Origin: a virus
Strand: one strand, 5' to 3'
IMG/VR virus record: IMGVR_UViG_3300036652_000073
Location: 1-20,949 of that record
DNA length: 20,949 bases
Below, piece by piece: positions 2,750 through 20,949 of this stretch. Both the position numbers and the translations under genes were made by a program. Position 1 is the stretch's first letter; every line of letters starts with the position of its first letter. The notes below the pieces were generated by a model. The model had not been told where the DNA came from. It ran no database searches and saw only the letters and a list, made by a program, of their open reading frames with translations.

Positions 2750-3217
2750 CTATTTAGGCCAAGCATCCGTTAAGGTTTTGGAATCGCTGGCGTGTCGGTC
2801 AGCCTTCTCAGCCAATTCTCTATATCTTCCTTGGCACTCTGCGAGTACAGTTGCGAGGGTTGAGGTTGAGTTACGGAGGGCTTCGACGGTAGCGCTGGGC
2901 ACGCCGTTGCGGATGGTGCCAAGGGCGTCGCGCAGCCCGAGAGAAGCAGCATTGCCACCAGCAGCAACAGTACGTAGAGTTTGTTCACGTTCATTCCCCT
3001 TAGATAAAGCATCATCACGTTGGACGCGCAATTCATCCTCTCGGATTTTTGCGGCATCTTTTGCTTCTTGTAGTTTTTGGGCATATTCGGCGCGCACTTC
3101 GTTTCGGCCAATATCTCGCTCATGCTCAAGAAATTCATGCACTCCCCAGCAAATGCCAGCAATCAAGGCCAGCCCAGCAACAATTTCTGCCACTCGGAGA
3201 TAGGCTAATGGATTCAC
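2750..3217 (-). CDS. Rz: Rz-like i-spanin (inner-membrane spanin subunit)
   Basis: This 155-residue protein starts at GTG 3217 within a GTGA overlap with the holin stop. There is no other Met in the frame, so GTG is the only usual start. Residues 12-30 form one N-terminal membrane anchor (IVAGLALIAGICWGVHEF), followed by a charged coiled coil at about 35-85 (ERDIGRNEVRAEYAQKLQEA), and a periplasmic C-terminal helix ending ADRHASDSKTLTDAW. This is the classical Rz architecture: anchored in the inner membrane, it pairs with the outer-membrane lipoprotein Rz1 across the periplasm to fuse the membranes in the last step of lysis. The strongest support is the Rz1 lipoprotein encoded inside this gene in another frame. 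Position after lysozyme and holin is typical. Confidence 0.9.
   Translation of the reverse strand: MNPLAYLRVAEIVAGLALIAGICWGVHEFLEHERDIGRNEVRAEYAQKLQEAKDAAKIREDELRVQRDDALSKGNEREQTLRTVAAGGNAASLGLRDALGTIRNGVPSATVEALRNSTSTLATVLAECQGRYRELAEKADRHASDSKTLTDAWPK
2770..2994 (-). CDS. Rz1: Rz1-like o-spanin lipoprotein, nested within Rz
   Basis: The gene lies wholly inside Rz in another frame. The ATG at 2994 has AGGGGA just upstream; a longer open frame extends to 3162 but lacks a signal sequence and is rejected. The 74-residue product has a lipoprotein signal: MNVNK, a Leu-rich core (LYVLLLLVAMLLL) and the lipobox LLSGC with the lipidated Cys at residue 21. The mature 54 residues are Pro-rich (PLAPSATACPALPSKPSVTQ) and end in a short amphipathic helix, as expected of o-spanins. 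It would sit in the inner leaflet of the outer membrane and bind the Rz C-terminus. The pair indicates a host with an outer membrane. Confidence 0.9.
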   Translation of the reverse strand: MNVNKLYVLLLLVAMLLLSGCATPLAPSATACPALPSKPSVTQPQPSQLYSQSAKEDIENWLRRLTDTPAIPKP

Positions 3218-3570: not shown

Positions 3571-4025
3571 CCCATCACCATCATTATGGATAACCGTTTT
3601 GCACGATCCCCGACTTGCGATGCCCAACGTGATGTAAGCATGCCGCGCGAAGCGGCAGCATAGTCGCCAGCTTTTACGGCGGCAAGCGTGTTTTTGAAGC
3701 CGAGTAGGCCAGCCACGCCTAGATTAAACGCCATGTTCAAAAGCGCCCGCTGGCGAGCATCCGATAAGCCGCGCCACCAAGGAATAGCAGCATCTAGTTC
3801 AGCCGTCTTAGCCTTAATGTCTGATAACAGTAAAGCTTCCGACTGGTTAGCAGTAATAGCCCCGCCATTCCGTAGATCAATTCCGAATGGGGCGGGATTC
3901 GCGCCTCTTTTGGGATCCAGTAAATGCCCCACTCCGATAGACCATAGGCCCATCGTGTCTAGGTATGCAGTCAGTTCCTCGCCCTCATCTCGGCGAAGTT
4001 CTGCAACTAGTAGATGCTCGTTCAT
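3567..4025 (-). CDS. T4-type lysozyme / endolysin (glycoside hydrolase family 24)
   Basis: This 152-residue enzyme (T4 lysozyme has 164) should cleave the MurNAc-GlcNAc bond of peptidoglycan. The N-terminus aligns without gaps with T4 lysozyme around its active site: LRRDEG gives the catalytic Glu at residue 14 (T4 E11), AYLDT gives Asp23 (T4 D20), and WSIGVGHLL places Ser29 where T4 has Thr26. Further family signatures are ALLNMAFNLG in the middle and SRWASQ followed by RAKR near the end. There is no signal peptide or SAR segment, so it should accumulate in the cytoplasm and depend on the adjacent holin. The start ATG overlaps the stop of the 56-residue upstream gene as ATGA. The C-terminus is shorter than in T4, ending soon after the RAKR helix. 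Confidence 0.93.
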   Translation of the reverse strand: MNEHLLVAELRRDEGEELTAYLDTMGLWSIGVGHLLDPKRGANPAPFGIDLRNGGAITANQSEALLLSDIKAKTAELDAAIPWWRGLSDARQRALLNMAFNLGVAGLLGFKNTLAAVKAGDYAAASRGMLTSRWASQVGDRAKRLSIMMVMG

Positions 4026-4192
4026 AGCGCTTCCTCGGGTCGGGTAGGGAATGCAGGAGTACCAGAAATTATTTCTTCGGCGGACGGCAACGGCAGATTT
4101 TGCGAGGTTAGCAGCTTCACGTCCTCAAGCTGCGCCATGATGTAGTCACGCACGGCACCGCGCCATGCGTTGAGCAGATCCCAATTAATCAT
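4022..4192 (-). CDS. Small hypothetical protein upstream of lysozyme (56 aa)
   Basis: A 56-residue open frame begins at ATG 4192 (MINWDLLNAWRGAVRDYIM) and ends EEAL with a TGA overlapping the lysozyme ATG as ATGA. The tight overlap and the fact that it fills an otherwise empty 197-base interval between two genes support it as real. The upstream AAAAGATAACC is only a weak ribosome-binding site. The N-terminal half should be an amphipathic helix; the C-terminal half is Pro-rich and polar. There is no membrane segment or recognised domain. It might modulate lysis or belong to the fibre, but nothing in the sequence decides this. Confidence 0.6.
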   Translation of the reverse strand: MINWDLLNAWRGAVRDYIMAQLEDVKLLTSQNLPLPSAEEIISGTPAFPTRPEEAL

Positions 4193-4222
4193 GGTTATCT
4201 TTTCATTCTGAAAGCTATTTCA

Positions 4223-4429
4223 CTACGGCTCAACATGCGGACCAAGCGGCATCCCATCAACATAATCAAAAATCTCAGCAGGACTAAACGCATTTTTAGG
4301 TATGTCAGCGCCGATATCATTTTCTGCAAAGTGCGCTCTCCAACGGTCCTCCATGTCTTCGATGTCATAGTAAGGCCCGAATGTATAGGCTTGATTAAAT
4401 TCATTGCCATAAAAAACTAAAACCTTCAT
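4223..4429 (-). CDS. Small acidic hypothetical protein after the tail fibre (68 aa)
   Basis: A 68-residue frame starts at ATG 4429, overlapping the tail-fibre stop as ATGA, and ends 30 bases before the next small gene. The product begins MKVLVFYGNEFNQAYTFG and is acidic, with an amphipathic helix (DIEDMEDRWRAHFAEND) and a Pro-rich end. No domain, signal or membrane segment is recognised. Position directly behind a fibre gene is where tail-fibre assembly chaperones often lie, but no similarity to the known chaperone families is apparent. It shares the low GC of the fibre gene, suggesting both were acquired together. A frame at 4195-4410 on the same strand is a shadow. Confidence 0.65.
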   Translation of the reverse strand: MKVLVFYGNEFNQAYTFGPYYDIEDMEDRWRAHFAENDIGADIPKNAFSPAEIFDYVDGMPLGPHVEP

Positions 4430-6876
4430 ACAAGCCTCACTTTCTGAATTTCAACTGTTAAGTTGCCACGATTGTATGAAAGCCAAGACTCTGAATTGGT
4501 TGAGCCTCGGCCACTATTAGACATAGATGAGATTATTGTGGCTGGCCGAACCGATGGCGTCAACGAGGCATCACTAATCCTCATGCTTGGCTTTGCACCA
4601 TCTGAAACACTTATGGCATGCGTTTTTGTTGGGTTACTGCTATTTGCCATAAGCAGCCCGGGCGTGAATATTTGCCTAGGATATGTAAGATCAGGGGCTA
4701 CAATCCCACTAGTGTATGCAGAAATACCACTGCTACGATAAATCTTTGCCAATGCGAAAGTTGAAGCAGTAACAGCGAAATTGTAAAGTACAGTACCGGA
4801 TGCATCGGATTGAGTGAACAGGTGTCCGCCTGAATATTCCGCAACATAGGTTACAGCGGCTGAGCTTCCCATATTTAATGAATAGGCAGTGCCGACTAAT
4901 GTCGGGACACCAGCTACATCATTAAATGCCGTGAATGATCCAGGATTTGCACCAGCAGCAATCACCATCGGATTAGTATTTGATTGGTCATTGGATAATG
5001 CAATACTAAAAGGCGATGTGATCCCTGTGCTAAGTTGAGTGCTGAATGCGGCAGTGGTGCCAGATACAGTAATGATTGAAATCCTGACCTGCGTATTTAC
5101 AAATGCAACTATGCAATTGCCAAGTAAGGATCTACGAACATAGCATGCGGTCGATGTTGCCGTCAGACTAGCGAGAGCACCAACAGTAATTGCTGTTCCA
5201 GAAATCGTAGCAGCTTTAGCACTAACAAATGTCGCCGCACTTAGCATATAGACAAAAAGAACTGTTGTTGGGTTGTAAGAAAAAGAGCATGCGGAATAAA
5301 TAGAACCGCTAGAGCCAGTGAAGATATTTGTAACAGAGCCTGAGGTTACTGTAGTTCCAGATATTGTCATTGCTACGGCCTCTACCCGTTGCTGGTTCCT
5401 AAAACCAGCAACGTATGAGGCTCCATAGGCCTGGATATCCATCACGCGGTAAAGCGTGTCACTAAATGTAATCGCGGATGGCGCTCCGCTAGTAATCGAT
5501 GTCCCGCTAATAGTGATGCAGATTGCTTGTCCAGCGGCGGCATCGTCACATGAAACTATAAGAACTTTGTCAGATCCTACCAACAGACATCCAACACGAT
5601 CAACAGTTATTGAATTGCTTGCAATGCCTATTGAAGACCTTAACAATGCAGAAGTACCAAATGATCTTGTTGATGAATCATACACAACAGCGTGAATAGA
5701 GCTTGAATAAGCCACAACAAGTGTCCTAGTTGCGCTCAAAGTTATTGCTTTTGCAAAACCAGTAACAGATGCTGATGTTGATAAAACAGTAGTTGTATTT
5801 ACAGTACCCAATACTTCAGTGCCGAATATATCTACATTAGACATTCCCCAAACACCGGATGGCGTAGCTGTACTCATCAATTCAGCAGTAGTCGTCACGC
5901 CCGGTGGCAGGAACCCAATAATATTTCCGCCTGAGTCTTTTATCATCAATGACGCAGAATTTGTAGCATCCTCAATGTTTGAAATATCATACTTGGTTCC
6001 AGCGGTGATAGTAGTAGCATCAGGGAGGATTACAGAAAGTCCGTTAGCCTGAGGCGTCAGACCTTGGACATTAGGGCTAGAAACAGTAAGGGTTAAATCG
6101 GCACTAATAGTACCGTAATTAGCCCCCGATGAAATGCCAGTTTGCAGAGTTGGGCCTGAAAGACTTACGGTCCAGTTTGATGCAGCCCCAGAGCCTTGTG
6201 TAAGGGTCACATTGATCGTCATCACTCCAGTTATAGGATTGTATGCCGTGATGTCGCCATAGTTCCAGTTGGTCGGACTGCCAGTAATAGCCTGCTTGAC
6301 GCTCATGCCAACAACAAATGCCTTACCAGGCTGAACAGTGATCGTAGTTGGGCCAGTTGCCACTGTATCAGAAGTAGTGCTAGTTGCAGAAGTGCCTGGA
6401 GCGTTTAGTGCAGTCTGCGCACTTGCTGCCGCTGCTGCCGCTGCGGCTTGTGCTGCGGCTGTCGAATTTGCTTCGTACTGAAACCAACCATTTTCAAAAT
6501 CATAACGAAGAGTTATGAATTGATCTTTTACAAAGTCATTAGCACCAACTGGAGTTCCATCGAACGAACGTACTTGTTTAAGTGGGAAACTTCCAGCCAA
6601 AATGGTTGTAGCACCAACAGCGCTATTACCAGCGCGGACAATAAGCTCTAAGCCATCCGTCAAATCAGTTATATTCTGATCGAGCGCGGCTATTACTAAT
6701 GAGCTTGGCGTACCGGTATCATCGTAAAAATTACTCTGACCACCTGCAATATCAGATGGGTTGGGTAATTTATCGAATGCTTGCTGGATCAGCAAAGATT
6801 CGTTTCGAGAAACAGCGGAGGATGCTCGGCTTAATGGCGCTGGGTTTCCCGATGCGGTGTAGTATTGATTAGACAA
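4426..6876 (-). CDS. Tail fibre / receptor-binding protein with predicted beta-propeller
   Basis: This 816-residue protein starts at TTG 6876, two bases after the hub-gene stop, with GGAG 8 bases upstream. No Met occurs before about residue 190, and the encoded N-terminus (MSNQYYTASGNPAPLSRASS, then Phe-Asp-Lys-Leu-Pro) is the kind shared by many podovirus fibres for attachment to the virion. Residues 139-158 are a poly-Ala/Gln helix. Residues 170-350 are Thr/Ser/Gly-rich beta structure. Residues about 375-715 contain some seven repeats of about 50 residues; the clearest carry ISGTSIT (456), ISGTTVT (505), ISGTAIT (558) and VSGTTAA (604), suggesting a seven-bladed propeller that probably binds the receptor. 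The C-terminal 100 residues are Ser-rich. Low GC marks it as exchanged separately from its neighbours. Binding specificity cannot be told. Confidence 0.82.
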   Translation of the reverse strand: MSNQYYTASGNPAPLSRASSAVSRNESLLIQQAFDKLPNPSDIAGGQSNFYDDTGTPSSLVIAALDQNITDLTDGLELIVRAGNSAVGATTILAGSFPLKQVRSFDGTPVGANDFVKDQFITLRYDFENGWFQYEANSTAAAQAAAAAAAASAQTALNAPGTSATSTTSDTVATGPTTITVQPGKAFVVGMSVKQAITGSPTNWNYGDITAYNPITGVMTINVTLTQGSGAASNWTVSLSGPTLQTGISSGANYGTISADLTLTVSSPNVQGLTPQANGLSVILPDATTITAGTKYDISNIEDATNSASLMIKDSGGNIIGFLPPGVTTTAELMSTATPSGVWGMSNVDIFGTEVLGTVNTTTVLSTSASVTGFAKAITLSATRTLVVAYSSSIHAVVYDSSTRSFGTSALLRSSIGIASNSITVDRVGCLLVGSDKVLIVSCDDAAAGQAICITISGTSITSGAPSAITFSDTLYRVMDIQAYGASYVAGFRNQQRVEAVAMTISGTTVTSGSVTNIFTGSSGSIYSACSFSYNPTTVLFVYMLSAATFVSAKAATISGTAITVGALASLTATSTACYVRRSLLGNCIVAFVNTQVRISIITVSGTTAAFSTQLSTGITSPFSIALSNDQSNTNPMVIAAGANPGSFTAFNDVAGVPTLVGTAYSLNMGSSAAVTYVAEYSGGHLFTQSDASGTVLYNFAVTASTFALAKIYRSSGISAYTSGIVAPDLTYPRQIFTPGLLMANSSNPTKTHAISVSDGAKPSMRISDASLTPSVRPATIISSMSNSGRGSTNSESWLSYNRGNLTVEIQKVRLV

Positions 6877-13840: not shown

Positions 13841-16335
13841 GGTGTCTCGCTTGTGGACATTTCGTCACGCACCAAGCTTGGAGGACTCATGCGGACATCG
13901 TGCTCTTTGCTAGCTGCGTCAAGCGTGATGGCAAGGTTGGTTTCCTGTTCGGCCAATTCGCGCTTCGTCTGATCGCTAATGGTCGTCTTGGCAAGGTCAG
14001 TTTTTGCCGAGTCAAGCGATTCCTGCTGATCGGCTTGGATACGCGCTTGTTCCGACTGTTGCGCCGCTTGAAGTTCAAGCTGCTTAATCTCCAAATCAAT
14101 CTGCTTCATCTGCAAATCATGCTCGCGCTGCTTTTGCGCTTCGTCAGCAGCCCGAGCGGCAGCAGCTTCTTGCGCTTGCATGTCAATCTGCGCTTTTTGA
14201 AGGTCCGTTTGAGCCTTCAACTGTGCAATCTGAAGCGAGTTATCAGGCGCTTGTGGCTGGCCTTGTGGCGCCGCCTCTTGGCCCAGTTTCATGCCCTCGA
14301 TTTCCTTTGCAGACTCGGCGCGAATCTTCGCTACGGTTACGCTCGGGTCTTCAGGCGGTGGAGTTTCAGCTAGTTTCTGCTGTTCTTCTTCCGTGTATTG
14401 CATCGTGCGCGGATCAAGGCGCTTGGACTTCAGCCACTCAGTAAGCCAGCTTTTCGGATTGATGCCGAAGGCTGGATTTAGCACCATTTGCGTCATCATC
14501 GCCAATGTCTGATCCTGAATCGCACGCTCAACCAATGCCACAGAGCCGTGCGCGTTGATTTCCATGTCGCCTTTTTCATCATCAGGCACTTCTGGATCAA
14601 GCAACAGGTATTCGTAGAAGGCGCGAACAACTGGCTCGGTAATATGGTCATCGTAGGAATAGCCAATGCTGCGCAAGAGCGTGTTTGCATTGTTATTCTG
14701 AAGCTGTTGACCGCCTAAAGTTTCGGGCGTTGTAGGACCAGTCTGACCCTGCGAGATGAGCGGGATATTCGTTGCCTCTTCCGCCTGACGCTCGGCAAGC
14801 GCAATGATCTGATTCATCTGGTCGCCCACGTTCGGGATGACCACGGACATAAATGCGGTGCGCACGTCCTGATTAATAGCGTCAGGCTCTTTGAACCAAA
14901 TCTTGTTAGGGCGCAGCACCCAGTCATTGGCCTGTGCTGGCGTGATCGCCTGGCGGTCAATGATGATCTGCGGGCCGCACGACAGGCCAGCGTTATTCAA
15001 CAGGGCGCGAGTAGAAGCATTCAGCATGCGCTGCGGGCCGTTAAGCTGCTCGCCCACACCAACGCCAGCCCACGAACCAGCGCGGCGGCTCCAAGGCATT
15101 GCGTGGTATGGGAAGCTGCCAGACTCCAAAGGATTCAGCACAGCGCGGATAATCGAATCGTTGACCATCGTGACGATGCAATAGAACTCGTCAATTTCCT
15201 TGCCCATCTTGGCGGCAAGTTCCGAGTTGGCCGACTCCAAATCCTTGCGGGTCAGCGAGCCGTAGTAGTACCAGACACGGTAACGTTTTTTCTTGTCTTT
15301 CTCGGCGGGGTTGGCGCCTTCTTTATTGCATTTATCAGGACCTTCTTCGATAACTTTATCGATCTGATGACCGATGTAGTATTTTTCCTTTTTCAGCGCC
15401 TTGAGGCCACGCGTAGAAAGGAAGTCACACTCAAAAATTCCTTCGCCGTTATGGATATTCTCGCCGCAAGCTGGATCAGGGAACAGATTCCAAGGATCAA
15501 CCCACTTGGCAGAAGGAATTAGTTTCTCAACAATCTTGAGCTTGATGCCGCCATTGATCTTCTCAGCCGCCTGCGACTTCTTCAGGTCAGGGAATGGGCC
15601 TTTCAGCACGCCCACGCCAATACGCGCCGCATCATGAATAATCTTGCGATTTTCAGCGTGGTAATTGCACTCGACCATCCAATCATAGATGCGCGTTTCC
15701 GCACGTTTTGCACGGTCATCAGCCTCGTCCATGATTTCTTGGGCAAGGTCGCCAATGGTCATCGGCTCGACTGGCGGCTGTGCAGGCTGTTGCGGCGTTG
15801 CTGCGCCCATTGGTGCAGGCATTGCTGGTTGAGCGACTGGCGCTGCTTGTGGCTGGTCAGGCTGTGGCGCAACACTTTGCTGAACCGCAGCCGCCGCTGG
15901 CTTCATGATCGGCTTGCCATCAGGCGTCATCGCTGGGCGCTTGTCTTCCTTGTCGTCAACCAGTTCAGGAACTGGCGTAGGCGAGAAGGAAAAAGCCTTG
16001 TCGTCAATAGGCAGAAGGATTTCCGCCAGCTTGGCAGCGCCTGCATCAACGTAACGACTAGTCAGGCGAACAAAGACATTGGAGCGCGGATCATTGGCCT
16101 GATAAGTCGATTCAGCCGTGACACTTCCCTGCATGCTCGTAGGCTTGGCCCACATCGCGCTCTTGAATTCATGACGGTTCGCGTCATCAATGCCTAGATA
16201 AGCATCCTCGCAAGCCATCCAAACAGCCTCAATGCCCGAGCTTTTACGCGCATCAATATACTCACTACGCTTAGACGTGAAGACGCCGCTCAGAGCTTCC
16301 AACTTTTCGATTTGCTCTGCGGAGATAGGTTTCAT
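13837..16335 (-). CDS. Portal protein
   Basis: The dodecameric ring at one capsid vertex through which terminase pumps DNA and onto which the adaptor docks. I chose ATG 16335 (832 residues); a GTG two codons upstream (16341) is equally open, neither having a strong ribosome-binding site. The N-terminal body has DPRSNVFVRLTSRYVDAG and KLAEILLP. A Pro/Ala/Gln-rich insertion follows at about residues 135-190, then DEADDRAKRAETRIYDWMVE, the wing/stem region with YRVWYYYGSL and FPYHAMPWSRRAGSWAGVGV, the crown-proximal TLGGQQLQNNNANTLLRSIG and a helix with EPVVRAFYEYLLLD. About the last 175 residues are a Gln/Ala/Lys-rich coiled coil. At more than 830 residues it is long, near P22 portal (725) plus a barrel extension. 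Placement after packaging genes and before scaffold and capsid agrees. Confidence 0.9.
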   Translation of the reverse strand: MKPISAEQIEKLEALSGVFTSKRSEYIDARKSSGIEAVWMACEDAYLGIDDANRHEFKSAMWAKPTSMQGSVTAESTYQANDPRSNVFVRLTSRYVDAGAAKLAEILLPIDDKAFSFSPTPVPELVDDKEDKRPAMTPDGKPIMKPAAAAVQQSVAPQPDQPQAAPVAQPAMPAPMGAATPQQPAQPPVEPMTIGDLAQEIMDEADDRAKRAETRIYDWMVECNYHAENRKIIHDAARIGVGVLKGPFPDLKKSQAAEKINGGIKLKIVEKLIPSAKWVDPWNLFPDPACGENIHNGEGIFECDFLSTRGLKALKKEKYYIGHQIDKVIEEGPDKCNKEGANPAEKDKKKRYRVWYYYGSLTRKDLESANSELAAKMGKEIDEFYCIVTMVNDSIIRAVLNPLESGSFPYHAMPWSRRAGSWAGVGVGEQLNGPQRMLNASTRALLNNAGLSCGPQIIIDRQAITPAQANDWVLRPNKIWFKEPDAINQDVRTAFMSVVIPNVGDQMNQIIALAERQAEEATNIPLISQGQTGPTTPETLGGQQLQNNNANTLLRSIGYSYDDHITEPVVRAFYEYLLLDPEVPDDEKGDMEINAHGSVALVERAIQDQTLAMMTQMVLNPAFGINPKSWLTEWLKSKRLDPRTMQYTEEEQQKLAETPPPEDPSVTVAKIRAESAKEIEGMKLGQEAAPQGQPQAPDNSLQIAQLKAQTDLQKAQIDMQAQEAAAARAADEAQKQREHDLQMKQIDLEIKQLELQAAQQSEQARIQADQQESLDSAKTDLAKTTISDQTKRELAEQETNLAITLDAASKEHDVRMSPPSLVRDEMSTSETP

Positions 16336-16348
16336 GTTCACTTTATGG

Positions 16349-18787
16349 TTATGCCGCGTTAGGCGTGCCGTAATACCTGCGCGCCCATACAGCCACTTGC
16401 TCAGCCTGGGCAGCGCTTAGGACGGTAGGGTAATCAATCACGCGGTAGATGTAGCCATCGAACGGGAGGCTCAGCGCACTAGCTGCGTACCGGCCTCCCA
16501 TCGTCACTGTGTCCATGTTTGCTGGCTGGCCAGTAGAAGAGTTATATGCCGTGCTGCCGCCATCGAAATACAGCGTAACTGCTGTCGCCCCAACAGATGC
16601 CGGGTCGAATTCCATCACGGCCACATGCAGTGCTGCCGTGTTAAGGGCATTTGGTGCCTGCGCATCTGCCGTGGTGCCCGCTGCACTGCCACGACGCGCA
16701 GCGACATACGTTCCACCAATGCTAACCATGCCCTCGCGGTTCGTCGTGCTGTTTGCAGACCCCTGCGAGCGCTCAAACGCCTGCATGTTGGAGTTGACAG
16801 TGATCGGCTCGTACACAATGACAACTGTTCCGCCGTTAGCCTGCGCTGCGGTACCTTGCAAGAATTGAGATACCGTCTTGTCGAACTTAGCAGCAGAGCG
16901 GTTGTTGGGCCGCAAAATACGCGTTGGCGAGGTCGTCGTGCTGGCGTTAGCCAAAGTCAACGATCCGCCATCGGATGGCGTCACCGAATTGATATGCGGA
17001 GGCGACTGCCCATCAACCGACAGCGAGGCTAGCTTGTCAAAGTCCCACGAGTTGCGGATTGCTGGGGCTCCAGTCAGCACCGGCGCGGCTACACCTTGAT
17101 CCGCCGCGAAAGCGATCAACGATGCCGTCGATGTCGCCTGCTGCCCTACGCTGTTAGTGATCGTGATTGTCAGAGTGGTGTCGATGATGCCGGATGGCGT
17201 CCCGGTAATCAGGCCAGTGGAATCATCGTACGATAACCCGCCAGTCAACCCAGTTACGTTGAGGGTCTTCGCACGGTTGCCGTTGGCGTCAGAAACCAGC
17301 ACGCCACAGTCTGCCTGCGCATACAGGTCATAGCTGTACGGTACGCCGATTGTCGCAGGCGGCAGGCGATCTACCAGCATGTGCGGGCCGATGTTAATGA
17401 CCAGACGATATGGGATGCAGGCCGTTCCGGGAACCTTTGTGTATATGACTGGCATGATACGACCGGACTTGTTTTCAGGCGGCGTCTTGTTCGATGTAAA
17501 GGCTGGCGTGCCGCTAATAACTCGTGCTGATGCATCATAGGTCATACCAAGCGGTTGATTCCGGTATCCGCCTTGGTAATCTCCGCCAGGCTCATTCGAC
17601 TCTTGCGCCCATGATTCGATATCATCAGTAACAGCGCTCCCCCATAACGTTGTCGCACTAGGCAATGCGATGTTGATCGCAGCACCATAGTCAACGTTAT
17701 ACGTCTGCGATGCAACCTGCGGCTGATACAGCGTTCCTACGCTCGTCAAGATTGCGAAGTAATCGATGTCCATCACAGCACCAGCAGAGCCGGCAGCTAC
17801 CCAATCCGCATCTTGGTATGGGTCTGCTGGGAAGTCAGCTACGTGATTGGTAAGCAGAATGTAATGTGGGCGCGAGGTATCTGCTACTTGACCTGCTGGA
17901 AGCGAGCGAACATTATTAATCGCACCTGCGCCACCGCCAGATGCGATATTGCTGTAGAAATTGACAGAACCGTCCACAAGAACTTCGATACGGAACAAAT
18001 AATCTGTACCGCTCACATAACTAGCTTCTTGGGCTGTACCGGAATTGTTGGTGCTGCTGCCGCTGGTCCATGCGTACTTTTCAGGCGCGATTTTCAGACT
18101 AGTTGCTTCCCAATCCAGCTCAGTGCTTGTGAAGGAAGTCACCGATTTCATCTGCATCATCCAGAAAGTCGGATGCCAGCCGCGCATATTCACTTGCGAC
18201 TTCGTAAGCTTCATTTTGCAGTCAATGAAGAACGGGGCCATCACCACATGCGAAGTAGCGGTGTTAATCATGCCAGATGCGTTCGGCGTTGCACTTACAA
18301 AAGTGGCTCTTTCCGGCGTAGTCGCAGTACGTGTTTTCAACTGAAGTCGGCCACCAGCGATAGCGATCAGATCGCTAAAAGAAGCCATCGCAACGCCGCG
18401 ATTGACGTCATTGAAACCAGTATGCCCAGCATCAGCGTCATAACCCTTGAGGGCTAGGCCGCCAGAAGAATTCCCGCGAGGTCCGTTACCTGTCGCAAGG
18501 TTCATATATGCGCGCGTGGTCGAATATTTTCCTGCTGGATTACCTGGCGTGATGAAACTGATAGAGTTGAAATCATCGCCAGTTGTGGCGATATAGCTGC
18601 GCCCACCGTTGGTGTAAGTGCTACCCAGTGTGTAAGGGCCAATGGTCGGCGGAGGCCCGAGCACGGACTGGTACACACCAGCCACTTTGACATAGGCACC
18701 TTGGACCGCAGCATAAACGCTGTTCTTCTTCGCGGACAAGCCTACGATGGCGTTATATGCCCCAGCGTTCTTGGTAAGGATCGGCAT
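16349..18787 (-). CDS. Modular tail adhesin with GH16-like catalytic domain (putative depolymerase)
   Basis: This 812-residue protein starts at ATG 18787, three bases after the stop of the 61-residue gene, with only a weak ribosome-binding site, so translation is probably coupled. Residues 1-50 (AAVQGAYVKVAGVYQSVLGP) resemble phage virion-anchoring segments. Residues about 140-350 look like a beta-jelly-roll of the GH16/concanavalin class: FFIDCKMKLTKS, GWHPTFWMMQM (203-213) and ELDWE (223-227). The last matches the ExDxE active-site motif, with E223 as nucleophile and E227 as acid/base. Residues about 470-560 form a putative Ig (He-PIG) domain with IGVPYSYDLYA and GLSYDDSTGLITGTPSG. Residues about 575-812 resemble a LamG/lectin domain ending YPTVLSAAQAEQVAVWARRY. 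It could bind and cut a host polysaccharide; activity is inferred. A catalytically dead lectin is the main alternative. Confidence 0.78.
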   Translation of the reverse strand: MPILTKNAGAYNAIVGLSAKKNSVYAAVQGAYVKVAGVYQSVLGPPPTIGPYTLGSTYTNGGRSYIATTGDDFNSISFITPGNPAGKYSTTRAYMNLATGNGPRGNSSGGLALKGYDADAGHTGFNDVNRGVAMASFSDLIAIAGGRLQLKTRTATTPERATFVSATPNASGMINTATSHVVMAPFFIDCKMKLTKSQVNMRGWHPTFWMMQMKSVTSFTSTELDWEATSLKIAPEKYAWTSGSSTNNSGTAQEASYVSGTDYLFRIEVLVDGSVNFYSNIASGGGAGAINNVRSLPAGQVADTSRPHYILLTNHVADFPADPYQDADWVAAGSAGAVMDIDYFAILTSVGTLYQPQVASQTYNVDYGAAINIALPSATTLWGSAVTDDIESWAQESNEPGGDYQGGYRNQPLGMTYDASARVISGTPAFTSNKTPPENKSGRIMPVIYTKVPGTACIPYRLVINIGPHMLVDRLPPATIGVPYSYDLYAQADCGVLVSDANGNRAKTLNVTGLTGGLSYDDSTGLITGTPSGIIDTTLTITITNSVGQQATSTASLIAFAADQGVAAPVLTGAPAIRNSWDFDKLASLSVDGQSPPHINSVTPSDGGSLTLANASTTTSPTRILRPNNRSAAKFDKTVSQFLQGTAAQANGGTVVIVYEPITVNSNMQAFERSQGSANSTTNREGMVSIGGTYVAARRGSAAGTTADAQAPNALNTAALHVAVMEFDPASVGATAVTLYFDGGSTAYNSSTGQPANMDTVTMGGRYAASALSLPFDGYIYRVIDYPTVLSAAQAEQVAVWARRYYGTPNAA

Positions 18788-18790
18788 GAC

Positions 18791-18976
18791 TTAGGCGGTC
18801 TGAATGTAAATGGTGCCGTCAGGGTAGCCGTCGTTATTGGACGGCGCAGCGGAACTTACCACGACAATCAGGCTCTTGCCATTGCCAGGATTCAGCAGTC
18901 CGACGACCGCATTGGTGTTTGGGTCAGTCAGCAGGTTTATGTTGGCGACGCGCTGCAATACGTTTGGATTGCTCAT
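18791..18976 (-). CDS. Small virion-associated protein (61 aa)
   Basis: A 61-residue protein starting at ATG 18976 with AAGGAG about 6 bases upstream, a good start. It reads MSNPNVLQRVANINLLTDPN, then AVVGLLNPGNGKSLIVVVSS and ends DGTIYIQTA. The end (P-D-G-T-I-Y-I-Q) is a strand-turn-strand commonly found in tail-fibre and baseplate-type beta domains. There is no signal peptide or membrane segment. It lies between the exported fibre-like protein and the GH16-like adhesin, 3 bases from the latter, so it may be a small adaptor or cap for that adhesin. Function unknown. Confidence 0.75.
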   Translation of the reverse strand: MSNPNVLQRVANINLLTDPNTNAVVGLLNPGNGKSLIVVVSSAAPSNNDGYPDGTIYIQTA

Positions 18977-18985
18977 GATTTCTCC

Positions 18986-19978
18986 TTAACCCGCAGTCTG
19001 TTCGACGGCAGTAATGGTGAAGGTTCCGGCAGTCGCGCAGAGGATCATGCTTGCGCCGACTGGAAGGAAGATCGGAACTGGGTTGGTACTGTTCTGGGTC
19101 AGCAACAGGCCAAGGCCTACGGTCAGCGATTGCGTGTAATAGACGGTGCCAGTCGAGCAGGTCAGCGTGCCAGTACCCATGCGGACCTGTACCGTGCATG
19201 CGCTCGATGCTAGAACCTGCGTGGCGTTCTGGCATGCGTAGCTGGGGAAGATGATCGCCGCCTTGCTCGTATCGGTTGCTTGATAGCTGGTGCTGACTGC
19301 AAGCGTGCGGTTGCTCGGCTGGCTGAAGTTAAATGGCGATACAGCGGCAGGCGTTGGCACGTTCAGCGCGCCGGTAACGCCGTTGTAGGTCGCTGCGCCG
19401 CTGCCGGTAGTAGTCAGAGATACAGCGGGCGGAATCGATGGGAACGTAGCCGCCGTGCCATTGCCGCGCAGATACTCGCCGCTCGTGCCAGTTGGCGTAT
19501 TGAACTTGCCAGCGAGGCCAGTACCCAGCGCACTAGTGGTTGCATAGTTCGCCAGCGAGACATTGAGCGCGTACACGGACAGGTCAGGCTTGCCACTCAG
19601 GTCAGCATAAGCGCCAGAGAAGATGGTAGGCAGGCCCGACAGGTCAAGATACTGACCAGTCATGCCTACAGTAGCAATCGTAGGCTTGTTCAGGATCTGC
19701 GCGACGCCGCTCGATGCGTTCCAGTCGGAATTGACCTGTGGGCCGCTGCCCGATGCAGTCAGGACGCCGCTGACAATCGACAACCCCGAGCCGAGTGTTG
19801 CGTATGCTGGCAGGTTCGTACTGACGTTGTAGTAGACCAGGCCATCCGTTACAGTCGTCGGGATCACGCGGTTGATCGTGGTGTTGTCGAGCGTGTTGCG
19901 CTGCCCGATCACCAGATCGAGCGGACCAGCAAACGCCGACGATGCCGCGAACAGCAGCAGGGCAAAGAGTTTCTTCAT
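18986..19978 (-). CDS. Tail-fibre-like protein with Sec signal peptide
   Basis: I place the start at ATG 19978, overlapping the previous stop as TAATG, giving 330 residues; an ATG five codons upstream has no ribosome-binding site. Residues 1-17 form a textbook signal peptide: MKKLFALLLFAASSAFA, then Gly-Pro. The next 180 residues are typical of phage fibre shafts: SDWNASSGVAQILNKPTIAT, a Leu-Ser-Gly-Leu-Pro / Leu-Ser-Gly-Lys-Pro pair, and EYLRGNGTAATFPSIPP. The C-terminal third (NRTLAVSTSYQATD to TITAVEQTAG) resembles the common fibre-tip beta domain and carries four Cys (about 249, 261, 274, 314). A signal peptide is odd on a virion protein, which should be assembled in the cytoplasm; the Cys residues would suit disulfides in the periplasm. 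It may be a secreted or surface-anchored adhesin. Role uncertain. Confidence 0.78.
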   Translation of the reverse strand: MKKLFALLLFAASSAFAGPLDLVIGQRNTLDNTTINRVIPTTVTDGLVYYNVSTNLPAYATLGSGLSIVSGVLTASGSGPQVNSDWNASSGVAQILNKPTIATVGMTGQYLDLSGLPTIFSGAYADLSGKPDLSVYALNVSLANYATTSALGTGLAGKFNTPTGTSGEYLRGNGTAATFPSIPPAVSLTTTGSGAATYNGVTGALNVPTPAAVSPFNFSQPSNRTLAVSTSYQATDTSKAAIIFPSYACQNATQVLASSACTVQVRMGTGTLTCSTGTVYYTQSLTVGLGLLLTQNSTNPVPIFLPVGASMILCATAGTFTITAVEQTAG

Positions 19979-20325
19979 TAGATCACCATCCATGTGTTGT
20001 TAGCCGTGTACTCAAGCGTCATGCTCGCGCCGGTCAGCAGCGTGCCAGGGCTACCGAGGATAGTCGTTGCGCCATTGATGACTAGGTTGGTGATCGCGTT
20101 GCTGGTGACGATGCGTGCCTTGTCGCCAAGCTGCGGCGATGGCGGCATGGTAACGGTCAGGTTAAGCAGCGTACCGGCCGGCGTCAGGTTGACCGTGGAA
20201 TCAGTCGTGCCGCCCTGCATGGTTACTGTTGCGCCAGTCGTAGGCGATGCGCTGGCAACCTTTGGCGCTGCACGTTCTGCCGCAGCAGCCGCAGCCGCGC
20301 TAATGCTCGTGTTCACAATGGTCAT
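19978..20325 (-). CDS. Small beta-rich virion-associated protein (115 aa)
   Basis: A 115-residue protein whose ATG (20325) overlaps the previous stop as ATGA; its own stop overlaps the next ATG. The N-terminus has an Ala-rich helix (ISAAAAAAAERAAPKVASAS) followed by beta-strands with TVNLTPAGTLLNLTVTMPPS, PQLGDKARIV and ASMTLEYTANNTWMVI. The last segments resemble small beta-barrel modules found in trimeric tail fibres. No signal peptide is present. It sits in the cluster of fibre-like genes between terminase and portal and may trimerise with one of them. Function not known. Confidence 0.75.
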   Translation of the reverse strand: MTIVNTSISAAAAAAAERAAPKVASASPTTGATVTMQGGTTDSTVNLTPAGTLLNLTVTMPPSPQLGDKARIVTSNAITNLVINGATTILGSPGTLLTGASMTLEYTANNTWMVI

Positions 20326-20663
20326 CAGCGCACCCGGGCGAAGAATTGGCAGTCAGCAGCGCCAGCAGTCAGCGTAGGCGCGGTAGTCGAGTTGGCAACG
20401 TACAAGCCATTCGCAAAGTTCATGCCGTACACTCCGAAGTCAATGCTGAAGTTGGCAGCAGCAGCAACAGAGATGTTGAGCACAGGCGCAACACCATTTG
20501 CAGGAGCCGAAGCCGAATCATGCAACTGGATAAACTGCGCGGGGCCGCTGTTGTAACCGCTGATCCCATACAGAATCGTCGGCGAAACACTCACAACCTT
20601 ACCCGCAGCCAAAGCAGCTTGAGGCACATTGCGCGCCTGAACTCCAACAATCGTATCTGCCAT
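20325..20663 (-). CDS. Small beta-rich hypothetical virion protein (112 aa)
   Basis: A 112-residue protein starting at ATG 20663 with GGGGAAG about 4 bases upstream; the terminase terminator ends 12 bases before the ATG. It reads MADTIVGVQARNVPQAALAA, then ILYGISGYNSGPAQFIQLHD, APVLNISVAAAANFSIDFG and ANGLYVANSTTAPT. The Y-x-(I/L)-x-G-Y-N-S-G-x-x-Q-(F/Y)-(I/L)-(Q/H)-L-(H/F)-D pattern is seen in small phage proteins coded near tail or capsid genes, and is probably a jelly-roll-like domain. No signal peptide or catalytic motif. It opens the run of small genes after terminase. Structural role inferred. Confidence 0.78.
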   Translation of the reverse strand: MADTIVGVQARNVPQAALAAGKVVSVSPTILYGISGYNSGPAQFIQLHDSASAPANGVAPVLNISVAAAANFSIDFGVYGMNFANGLYVANSTTAPTLTAGAADCQFFARVR

Positions 20664-20675
20664 GACTTCCCCATT

Positions 20676-20698
20676 AAAAAAGCCGCTCAGAGGCGGCT
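20676..20698 (-). terminator. Intrinsic terminator after the large terminase gene
   Basis: The minus strand reads AGCCGC, loop CTCTGA, GCGGCT then a run of six T. The hairpin starts 7 bases after the terminase stop, and the T tract ends 12 bases before the next start codon with only a ribosome-binding site in between. Transcription of the next gene must therefore come through it. Confidence 0.88.
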
Positions 20699-20704
20699 GT
20701 GTTT

Positions 20705-20949
20705 CTATCCTAGGCCCATGCCTCGATCGTGAGGTATGAATACCTGCACGTCAGGGCGTTGCCATTCTTCGTCATTCGTCAACAGTTCAGCGGTTACGCC
20801 GAGATAGCGGAAGGCGTCCGAGTTGCTGACTAACATCCCGCCAGCAAAATAACAGTGGTGACGCTCAATCGTCAGATTGAATACCGGCTGTTTTTCTACG
20901 TCGAAGCGCCGCAGCTTTACAATTTGCGTGGCAGAACTTTGAACGATTT
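20705..20949 (-). CDS. terL: Large terminase subunit, C-terminal end, interrupted by an intein (partial)
   Basis: The frame enters the window open and stops at TAG 20705, giving 80 residues. The last 38 residues (from SDAFRYLGVTAELLTNDEEW to DRGMGLG) match the end of large terminase subunits, where the motif (A/S)-D-A-(F/L)-R-Y-L carries the final catalytic Asp of the RNase H-like nuclease that cuts concatemeric DNA. The 42 residues before it do not resemble terminase; they fit the C-terminal splicing region of an intein (separate entry). Splicing would join the upstream extein directly to Ser43 of the visible fragment and restore the nuclease motif. ATPase motifs and the N-terminal intein half are beyond the window edge. 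Position directly upstream of head genes supports terminase. Confidence 0.82.
   Translation of the reverse strand, partial: IVQSSATQIVKLRRFDVEKQPVFNLTIERHHCYFAGGMLVSNSDAFRYLGVTAELLTNDEEWQRPDVQVFIPHDRGMGLG
20822..20949 (-). other. Intein C-terminal splicing domain (Hint blocks F and G), partial
   Basis: The 42 visible residues end VFNLTIERHHCYFAGG then MLVSN, followed by Ser. This aligns residue for residue with intein block F (V-Y-D-L-x-V-E-x-x-H-x-[FY]-x-A-x-G) and block G (h-h-V-H-N followed by Ser, Thr or Cys). Asn42 is the cyclising residue and Ser43 the +1 nucleophile of the extein. The usual His before Asn is Ser here. The preceding IVKLRRFDVEKQP is the typical lead-in to block F. Block F His (second of the HH pair) is present. 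Blocks A and B and any homing endonuclease lie outside the window, so class and size are unknown. An intein remnant that no longer splices is possible. Confidence 0.82.

Follow-up and report, generated by a model that had tools for sequence, protein, structure and literature searches.

The window analysed in this study, a stretch of 20,949 nucleotides that makes up the entire public virus record IMGVR_UViG_3300036652_000073, ends inside an open reading frame that passes from an intein-like segment into the C-terminal motif of a large terminase subunit (TerL). The locus raises the question of whether the terminase gene (terL) of this phage is interrupted by a splicing intein and, if so, where the endonuclease expected in such an intein is encoded.

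An intein in the large terminase subunit

On the minus strand, positions 20947-20705 form a single open frame, which reads IVQSS...PVFNLTIERHHCYFAGGMLVSN/SDAFRYLGVTAELL... (slashes mark intein-extein junctions throughout). The family matches of this 80-aa piece alone are weak, with E=0.16 for Pfam Intein_splicing and E=9e-5 for the PHROG family "terminase large subunit", the latter at profile positions 744-783 of 799, near the C-terminus. Another contig from this phage, IMGVR_UViG_3300037069_000422 (hereafter L002), is 100% identical to window positions 16120-20949 (4,830 bp) and extends further (window position = 26948 - L002 position). In L002, positions 4009-6243 are an uninterrupted 744-aa ORF consisting of an N-extein of 384 aa, an intein of 322 aa and a C-extein of 38 aa (Table 1). 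The earlier note on this DNA, made from the window alone, had read intein blocks F and G running straight into SDAFRYLGV and had put the C-extein at about 38 residues; the complete ORF bears out this reading, and the C-extein is exactly 38 residues long. Upstream, the N-extein comprises the ATPase and the greater part of the nuclease domain of TerL, with matches to Pfam Terminase_3 (E=5e-39) and NCBIfam phage_term_2 (E=1e-45).

Table 1. Coordinates of the TerL, intein and HNH features in the window and in contig L002
Feature	Positions	Strand or frame	Basis
Intein, 322 aa	L002 5161-6126	TerL frame	Blocks A, B, F and G; stop-free
HNH gene, 215 aa, GTG start, own Shine-Dalgarno sequence	L002 5436-6083	-1 frame to TerL	Three-frame reading
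TerL C-extein SDAFRYLGV...GMGLG, 38 aa and stop	Window 20705..20821	-	Open frame; gapless match to CF63a TerL
C-terminal part of the intein, last 43 of 322 codons	Window 20822..20949	-	Same frame in L002; remainder at L002 5161-5998
Intein blocks F and G, PVFNLTIERHHCYFAGGMLVSN, catalytic Asn last	Window 20822..20887	-	Alignments A1/A2
3' end of the HNH endonuclease gene, ...KFCHANCKAAALRRRKTAGIQSDD and stop	Window 20865..20949	-, frame -1 to TerL	Three-frame reading

The splicing blocks A and B, which lie beyond the window, were found in L002 as CLPAGEMV (with Cys1) and TVTPNHRML (with the motif TPNH), and the intein ends with MLVSN/S, which provides the terminal Asn and a Ser at position +1. 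The whole L002 intein matched Pfam Intein_splicing with E=3e-8 and 34.0 bits, below the cut-off of 35.8; the intein of its relative L005 reached 51.3 in the same comparison and passed this cut-off as well as those of NCBIfam intein_Nterm and intein_Cterm. When joined, the exteins gave a gapless alignment with the TerL of Pseudomonas phage CF63a, which is free of an intein and 57% identical (LHDEYSHGSDMFRYVG; LHDEYSHG-SDMFRYVG), as the earlier note had expected of a spliced product. The two observations on which that note had let its intein depend, the presence of blocks A and B and the nature of the residues before SDAFRY, which could have been those of an ordinary terminase, thus both came out in favour of the intein.

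Structure prediction is consistent with this assignment. In the AlphaFold model of the L002 intein, residues 1-90 and about 284-322 mostly had pLDDT values of 85-97, and the stretch between them mostly 38-59. Foldseek searches with this model returned solved inteins, including Ssp DnaB (1mi8; TM 0.80 by target), gp41-1 and RecA. Across 26 inteins (alignments A1/A2), Tyr313, Ala315, Leu319, Ser321 and Asn322 are invariant, as is the block B His (alignment A2), and Cys1, the terminal Asn and a +1 Cys or Ser (Cys in 61 and Ser in 39) are present in every one of the 100 open loci whose ends are defined. The penultimate residue of the L002 intein is Ser, not His; over the 100 loci it is Ser in 52, His in 40 and another residue in 8. 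A penultimate His is usual in class 1 inteins but not obligatory. Given its Ser, the L002 intein could splice slowly or with impaired efficiency. Overall, the L002 insert has the features of a class-1-type intein and is predicted to splice. A group I or group II intron was rejected, since no Rfam match was obtained in L002 3900-6400 at E values up to 0.5 and the frame is open throughout, and a split intein or fractured gene was ruled out for L002 by the stop-free intein frame.

Position of the intein in the nuclease motif

In the G20c terminase, D294, D347 and D429, the last of these within H427-D428-D429, are essential ligands, and H427 and D428 assist (PMC5389553). Judged by the motif spacing relative to the G20c terminase, the residue three positions before the Asp of the DA motif would correspond to the third metal ligand, and the intein would sit directly after it. 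This residue is His in 63 and Asp in 9 of the intein set, an example being FPTKNVHDD/CADALSY. The earlier note had taken the Asp of SDAFRY itself as a catalytic metal ligand, which, according to the G20c ligands and the motif spacing, it probably is not. The insertion points are spread over a few residues of the one motif (SHG/SDAFRY, NH/CxDAxRY, HDD/CxDALxY and DA/CRYA). The unspliced precursor would have a broken nuclease site, and it is plausible that DNA packaging depends on splicing.

An endonuclease gene in a second reading frame

Between the splicing blocks of L002, no endonuclease is encoded in the TerL frame. The earlier note had expected an endonuclease within the intein, and an HNH endonuclease is indeed present there, but as a separate gene in the -1 frame whose product lies outside the intein polypeptide. 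The L002 HNH protein begins with HHIDHNKRNNAIENLE..., carries a C-terminal finger (CTIC...CHANC) and matches Pfam HNH_3 with E=8e-18 and 64.3 bits, the cut-off being 24.8. Directly before its GTG is GGAGGTGAATT, in which a Shine-Dalgarno sequence (GGAGG) overlaps a stop of the HNH frame. In a 28-row alignment, the His and Asn residues of the HNH motif are invariant and the zinc-finger residues are conserved. AlphaFold gave pLDDT values of 93-98 across most of the HNH and zinc-finger parts, and the best fold match in the PDB is I-HmuI, although this match is weak (E 0.29). In 10 loci, the stop codon of the HNH gene shares bases with the codon for the last Asn of the intein, so that codons of blocks F and G are read twice.

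The end and the length of the overprinted gene vary among loci. In 35 loci the HNH stop has the same position, which lies in block F, 55 nt ahead of the end of the intein; Leu-Thr codons (CTGAC) at this point would produce a TGA in the -1 frame. In L003, L005, L016, L022 and similar loci, with inteins of about 362-369 aa, the overprinted gene is longer, contains a second, degenerate HNH-like repeat and has an ATG that precedes the HNH domain by about 90 codons. The window also contains a second, well-known kind of nested gene, a spanin-like pair on the minus strand in which an Rz-like protein (2750-3217) and a short Rz1-like lipoprotein (2770-3162; MNVNKLYVLLLLVAMLLLSGC...) overlap in different frames.

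Distribution of the double-coded layout

Loci were collected by scans with the intein C-terminal end, the HINT N-terminal domain and the HNH protein alone, to which GenBank phages were added; the HNH scans were run with single proteins, the 26-row HNH alignment being too diverse for scanning. This yielded 107 distinct TerL inteins bearing this HNH family. The HNH is in the -1 frame with an open intein frame in 99 of the 107 and in the +1 frame with an open intein frame in two (L144, which is sound, and L232, which is doubtful), and the intein frame is broken in the remaining six, among them L051, which breaks at a run of N. No clear in-frame HNH was found in the core set of 107 inteins; L137 and L241 are candidates for inteins with in-frame, diverged HNHs. 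The +1 position of the HNH in L144 is apparently a separate frame switch.

Named carriers include Tetrasphaera phage TJE1, Rhodobacteraceae phage LS06-2018-MD07 and Acinetobacter phage Highwayman, all of which are annotated as terminase only; the records of TJE1 and Highwayman list one long "terminase large subunit" but no endonuclease. Other layouts were observed as well. In L041, L107, L180, L213 and L221, terL with the N-terminal intein part (IntN), an endonuclease ORF, and the C-terminal intein part (IntC) with the rest of terL and its own start codon follow as separate units, and these loci probably are natural split inteins. The nuclease of L041 is GIY-YIG-like and fused to the C-terminal part of the HNH family. 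In L093, L095, L097, L098, L099, L103 and L104, the N- and C-terminal intein parts are found in separate ORFs about 280-360 codons apart, and L093 has an ORF with a different HNH between them, which is the layout of a fractured gene.

Selection on the two frames

The number of stops expected in the overlap was estimated by permuting synonymous HNH codons within each locus. An intein-frame stop is absent from 101 of the 106 testable overlaps, compared with 7.5 expected, although the loci are related and their probabilities are not independent. The third frame, used as a control, is stop-free in none of the 106 loci and has 1600 stops where 1633 are expected. Among 69 representatives (clusters at 60% identity), 0 intein-frame stops were observed versus 165 expected, a zero that follows by definition in loci called open. 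Because the absence of stops in open loci is partly a matter of definition, the stop-free share of all 106 testable loci is the fair statistic. The five broken-frame loci have 51 intein-frame stops versus 45 expected, which is the level of chance, and several of them have separate IntC ORFs with start codons; the constraint to keep the frame open is gone in these loci, which could splice, if at all, only in trans.

Of the substitutions found in the overlap in 14 closer pairs, 561 are silent in the HNH and change the intein, and 188 are the reverse. These numbers indicate that it is the HNH product whose amino acids are under selection in the overlap, and that the intein frame is mainly kept open there. 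The comparisons thus establish, at the level of sequence, the architecture, the openness of both frames, the conservation of both products, the selection against stops and the protein-level selection on the HNH.

Translation of the HNH gene

A start codon follows the last HNH-frame stop in each of the 99 loci with a -1 HNH, and the best candidate is ATG in 87, GTG in 8 and TTG in 4. Shine-Dalgarno sequences of at least 5 bases precede it in 34% of loci, threefold the 10% found for control start codons; a recognisable one of at least 4 bases is missing in about a third of loci. A canonical -1 slippery heptamer (X XXY YYZ) occurs in the permitted stretch in 16 of the 99. Given the start codons in all 99 loci, the Shine-Dalgarno enrichment and the small number of heptamers, we prefer internal initiation as the way in which the HNH would be translated.

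Programmed -1 ribosomal frameshifting, by which the HNH would be made as a TerL-IntN-HNH fusion, is quite unlikely. It would agree with the HNH being exactly -1 in 99 of 101 open loci and with GGAGG lying upstream of TGGAAAAAG in L002, a placement loosely reminiscent of the dnaX arrangement. Besides the rarity of heptamers and the presence everywhere of a start codon, mostly ATG and with enriched Shine-Dalgarno sequences, frameshifting is disfavoured by the HNH-frame stop of L002, which overlaps the Shine-Dalgarno sequence just before the GTG, and by L144, which uses the +1 frame.

Proposed mechanism and alternative explanations

We propose that the element is very probably a splicing intein that carries an overprinted, separately translated homing endonuclease gene. 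The terL frame would encode a HINT splicing domain of about 90 N-terminal and 40 C-terminal residues, divided by a poorly structured linker of about 180 residues, and the -1 frame of the linker DNA and of some of the C-terminal splicing block would encode a complete HNH/zinc-finger endonuclease, which would start at an internal codon (the GTG behind GGAGG in L002) and stop shortly before the intein end. The precursor would splice itself, joining SHG to SDAFRY and thereby completing the TerL nuclease site, and the endonuclease, made separately from the same mRNA, would cut intein-free terL alleles, which would result in homing.

Three other explanations question the frame relation, the splicing or the homing in this proposal. 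That an ordinary in-frame HNH intein was thrown out of frame by sequencing or assembly errors, or by two recent compensating frameshifts, has a negligible probability. In-frame HNH inteins do exist, as the two candidates L137 and L241 illustrate, but the same -1 relation recurs in 99 distinct loci, which come from numerous metagenomes and from complete phage genomes, and both frames of the overlap have been under long-term selection; so many independent loci rule out a sequencing artefact. It is very improbable that the insert is retained without splicing, as an HNH insertion with a tolerated in-frame loop similar to that of ShiLan. An HNH likewise lies in the third frame of the ShiLan domain, which has a GTG start close to its beginning and ends in TAAC (PMC11855218), but the inserts described here have Cys1, the block B His, the Asn and the +1 Cys or Ser, all of them highly conserved, and the HINT fold recovered by AlphaFold and Foldseek, and an unspliced insertion would disrupt the terminase active site.

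The third alternative, to which we assign a low probability, is that the HNH serves mainly in DNA packaging together with the terminase instead of in homing, and that the intein is a carrier tying HNH expression to terL. Some HNH proteins are known to assist terminases (cited in a passage of PMC11855218), and a packaging function is conceivable for the same HNH family where it is free-standing next to intact terL, as in seven phages (PAE1, SN1, Poludnitsa, EauM-23, CL2, BP10 and Shemara). However, the GenBank phages with the most closely related TerL lack the intein, the insertion points within the one motif differ slightly, and the divergence of intein and extein is uncoupled, all of which is as expected of a mobile element. 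Thus, the inteins of L154 and L155 are 98.1% identical and their N-exteins 73.7%, and those of L004 and L005 92.3% and 81.2%, respectively. In the reverse case, L142 and L143 have N-exteins that are 96.7% identical and inteins that are only 76.6% identical at the same site, which suggests that one intein was replaced by another. In some pairs, the sequences show horizontal transfer. Acinetobacter phage BP10 was considered as the empty-site partner of Highwayman and dropped, its TerL being too distant to show the junction.

Origin and significance of the element

The overprinted homing endonuclease and its intein likely represent a widespread, undescribed class of phage mobile element, defined by a terminase intein at the nuclease motif, an independently translated -1 homing endonuclease and an open linker that is spliced out. 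Free-standing HNH genes near terL are a possible source of the nested gene. Free-standing HNH relatives were observed in L055, L056, L058, L059, L243, L244 and L246, beside an intein-free terL or, in BP10, upstream of terS. In the HNH tree, free and nested forms are interleaved, and the well-supported branches require three changes or more, although the bootstrap is rough and some "free" contig rows may be undetected inteins. The class may have arisen when free-standing HNH genes beside terL captured terL mini-inteins, and some lineages may then have become split inteins. The layout itself suggests such a path from a free-standing homing gene to an intein and to a split intein, and it provides a large, replicated natural experiment in gene overlap, into which the third-frame and split-intein controls are built.

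Comparison with known systems

Textbook accounts present an intein as a single polypeptide made up of a splicing domain and a homing domain. Here splicing and homing share DNA, not a reading frame, and so could be expressed, regulated and lost separately. Fractured genes or split inteins with a free-standing endonuclease, in which the intein frame is broken and splicing occurs in trans, were reportedly described by Dassa et al. in 2009. The elements of this study would share with them a separate endonuclease protein that is encoded between the intein halves; unlike in those split inteins, the intein frame stays open. No intein with an out-of-frame endonuclease was described in the literature searched, which did not cover the preprint of Gosselin et al. 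("Non-Canonical Architecture"; doi 10.1101/2025.01.02.630785), and this preprint may report similar inteins.

Canonical inteins consist of a HINT domain with a nested homing endonuclease domain (PMC6801210). They and the TerL inteins described here have in common the HINT domain and the endonuclease coding sequence between the splicing blocks, but the endonuclease of the latter is outside the intein polypeptide, in the -1 frame in 99 loci and in the +1 frame in L144. The TerL inteins of mycobacteriophages are competent in splicing, active as endonucleases and all situated in the ATPase domain, and often miss the penultimate His (PMC5050341; Kelley et al., 2016). The terminase host and the frequent loss of the penultimate His are shared with these inteins, whereas the position at the nuclease motif and the endonuclease in another frame are not.

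The nearest precedent is the ShiLan domain, described in 2025 as an out-of-frame HNH in an open insertion (PMC11855218). In its authors' own tests it lacked a splicing domain, and a ribosome-binding site was not detectable. Common to both are the third-frame HNH, the open frame of the host gene and the GTG start, and the stop of the ShiLan HNH may run into the final AAC codon (TAAC), just as the HNH stop and the last Asn codon overlap in the 10 loci mentioned above. The unexplained ShiLan insertions may be related to the element described here, which, unlike them, has a complete HINT domain, has Shine-Dalgarno sequences in many loci and resides in terminases of phages from diverse hosts.
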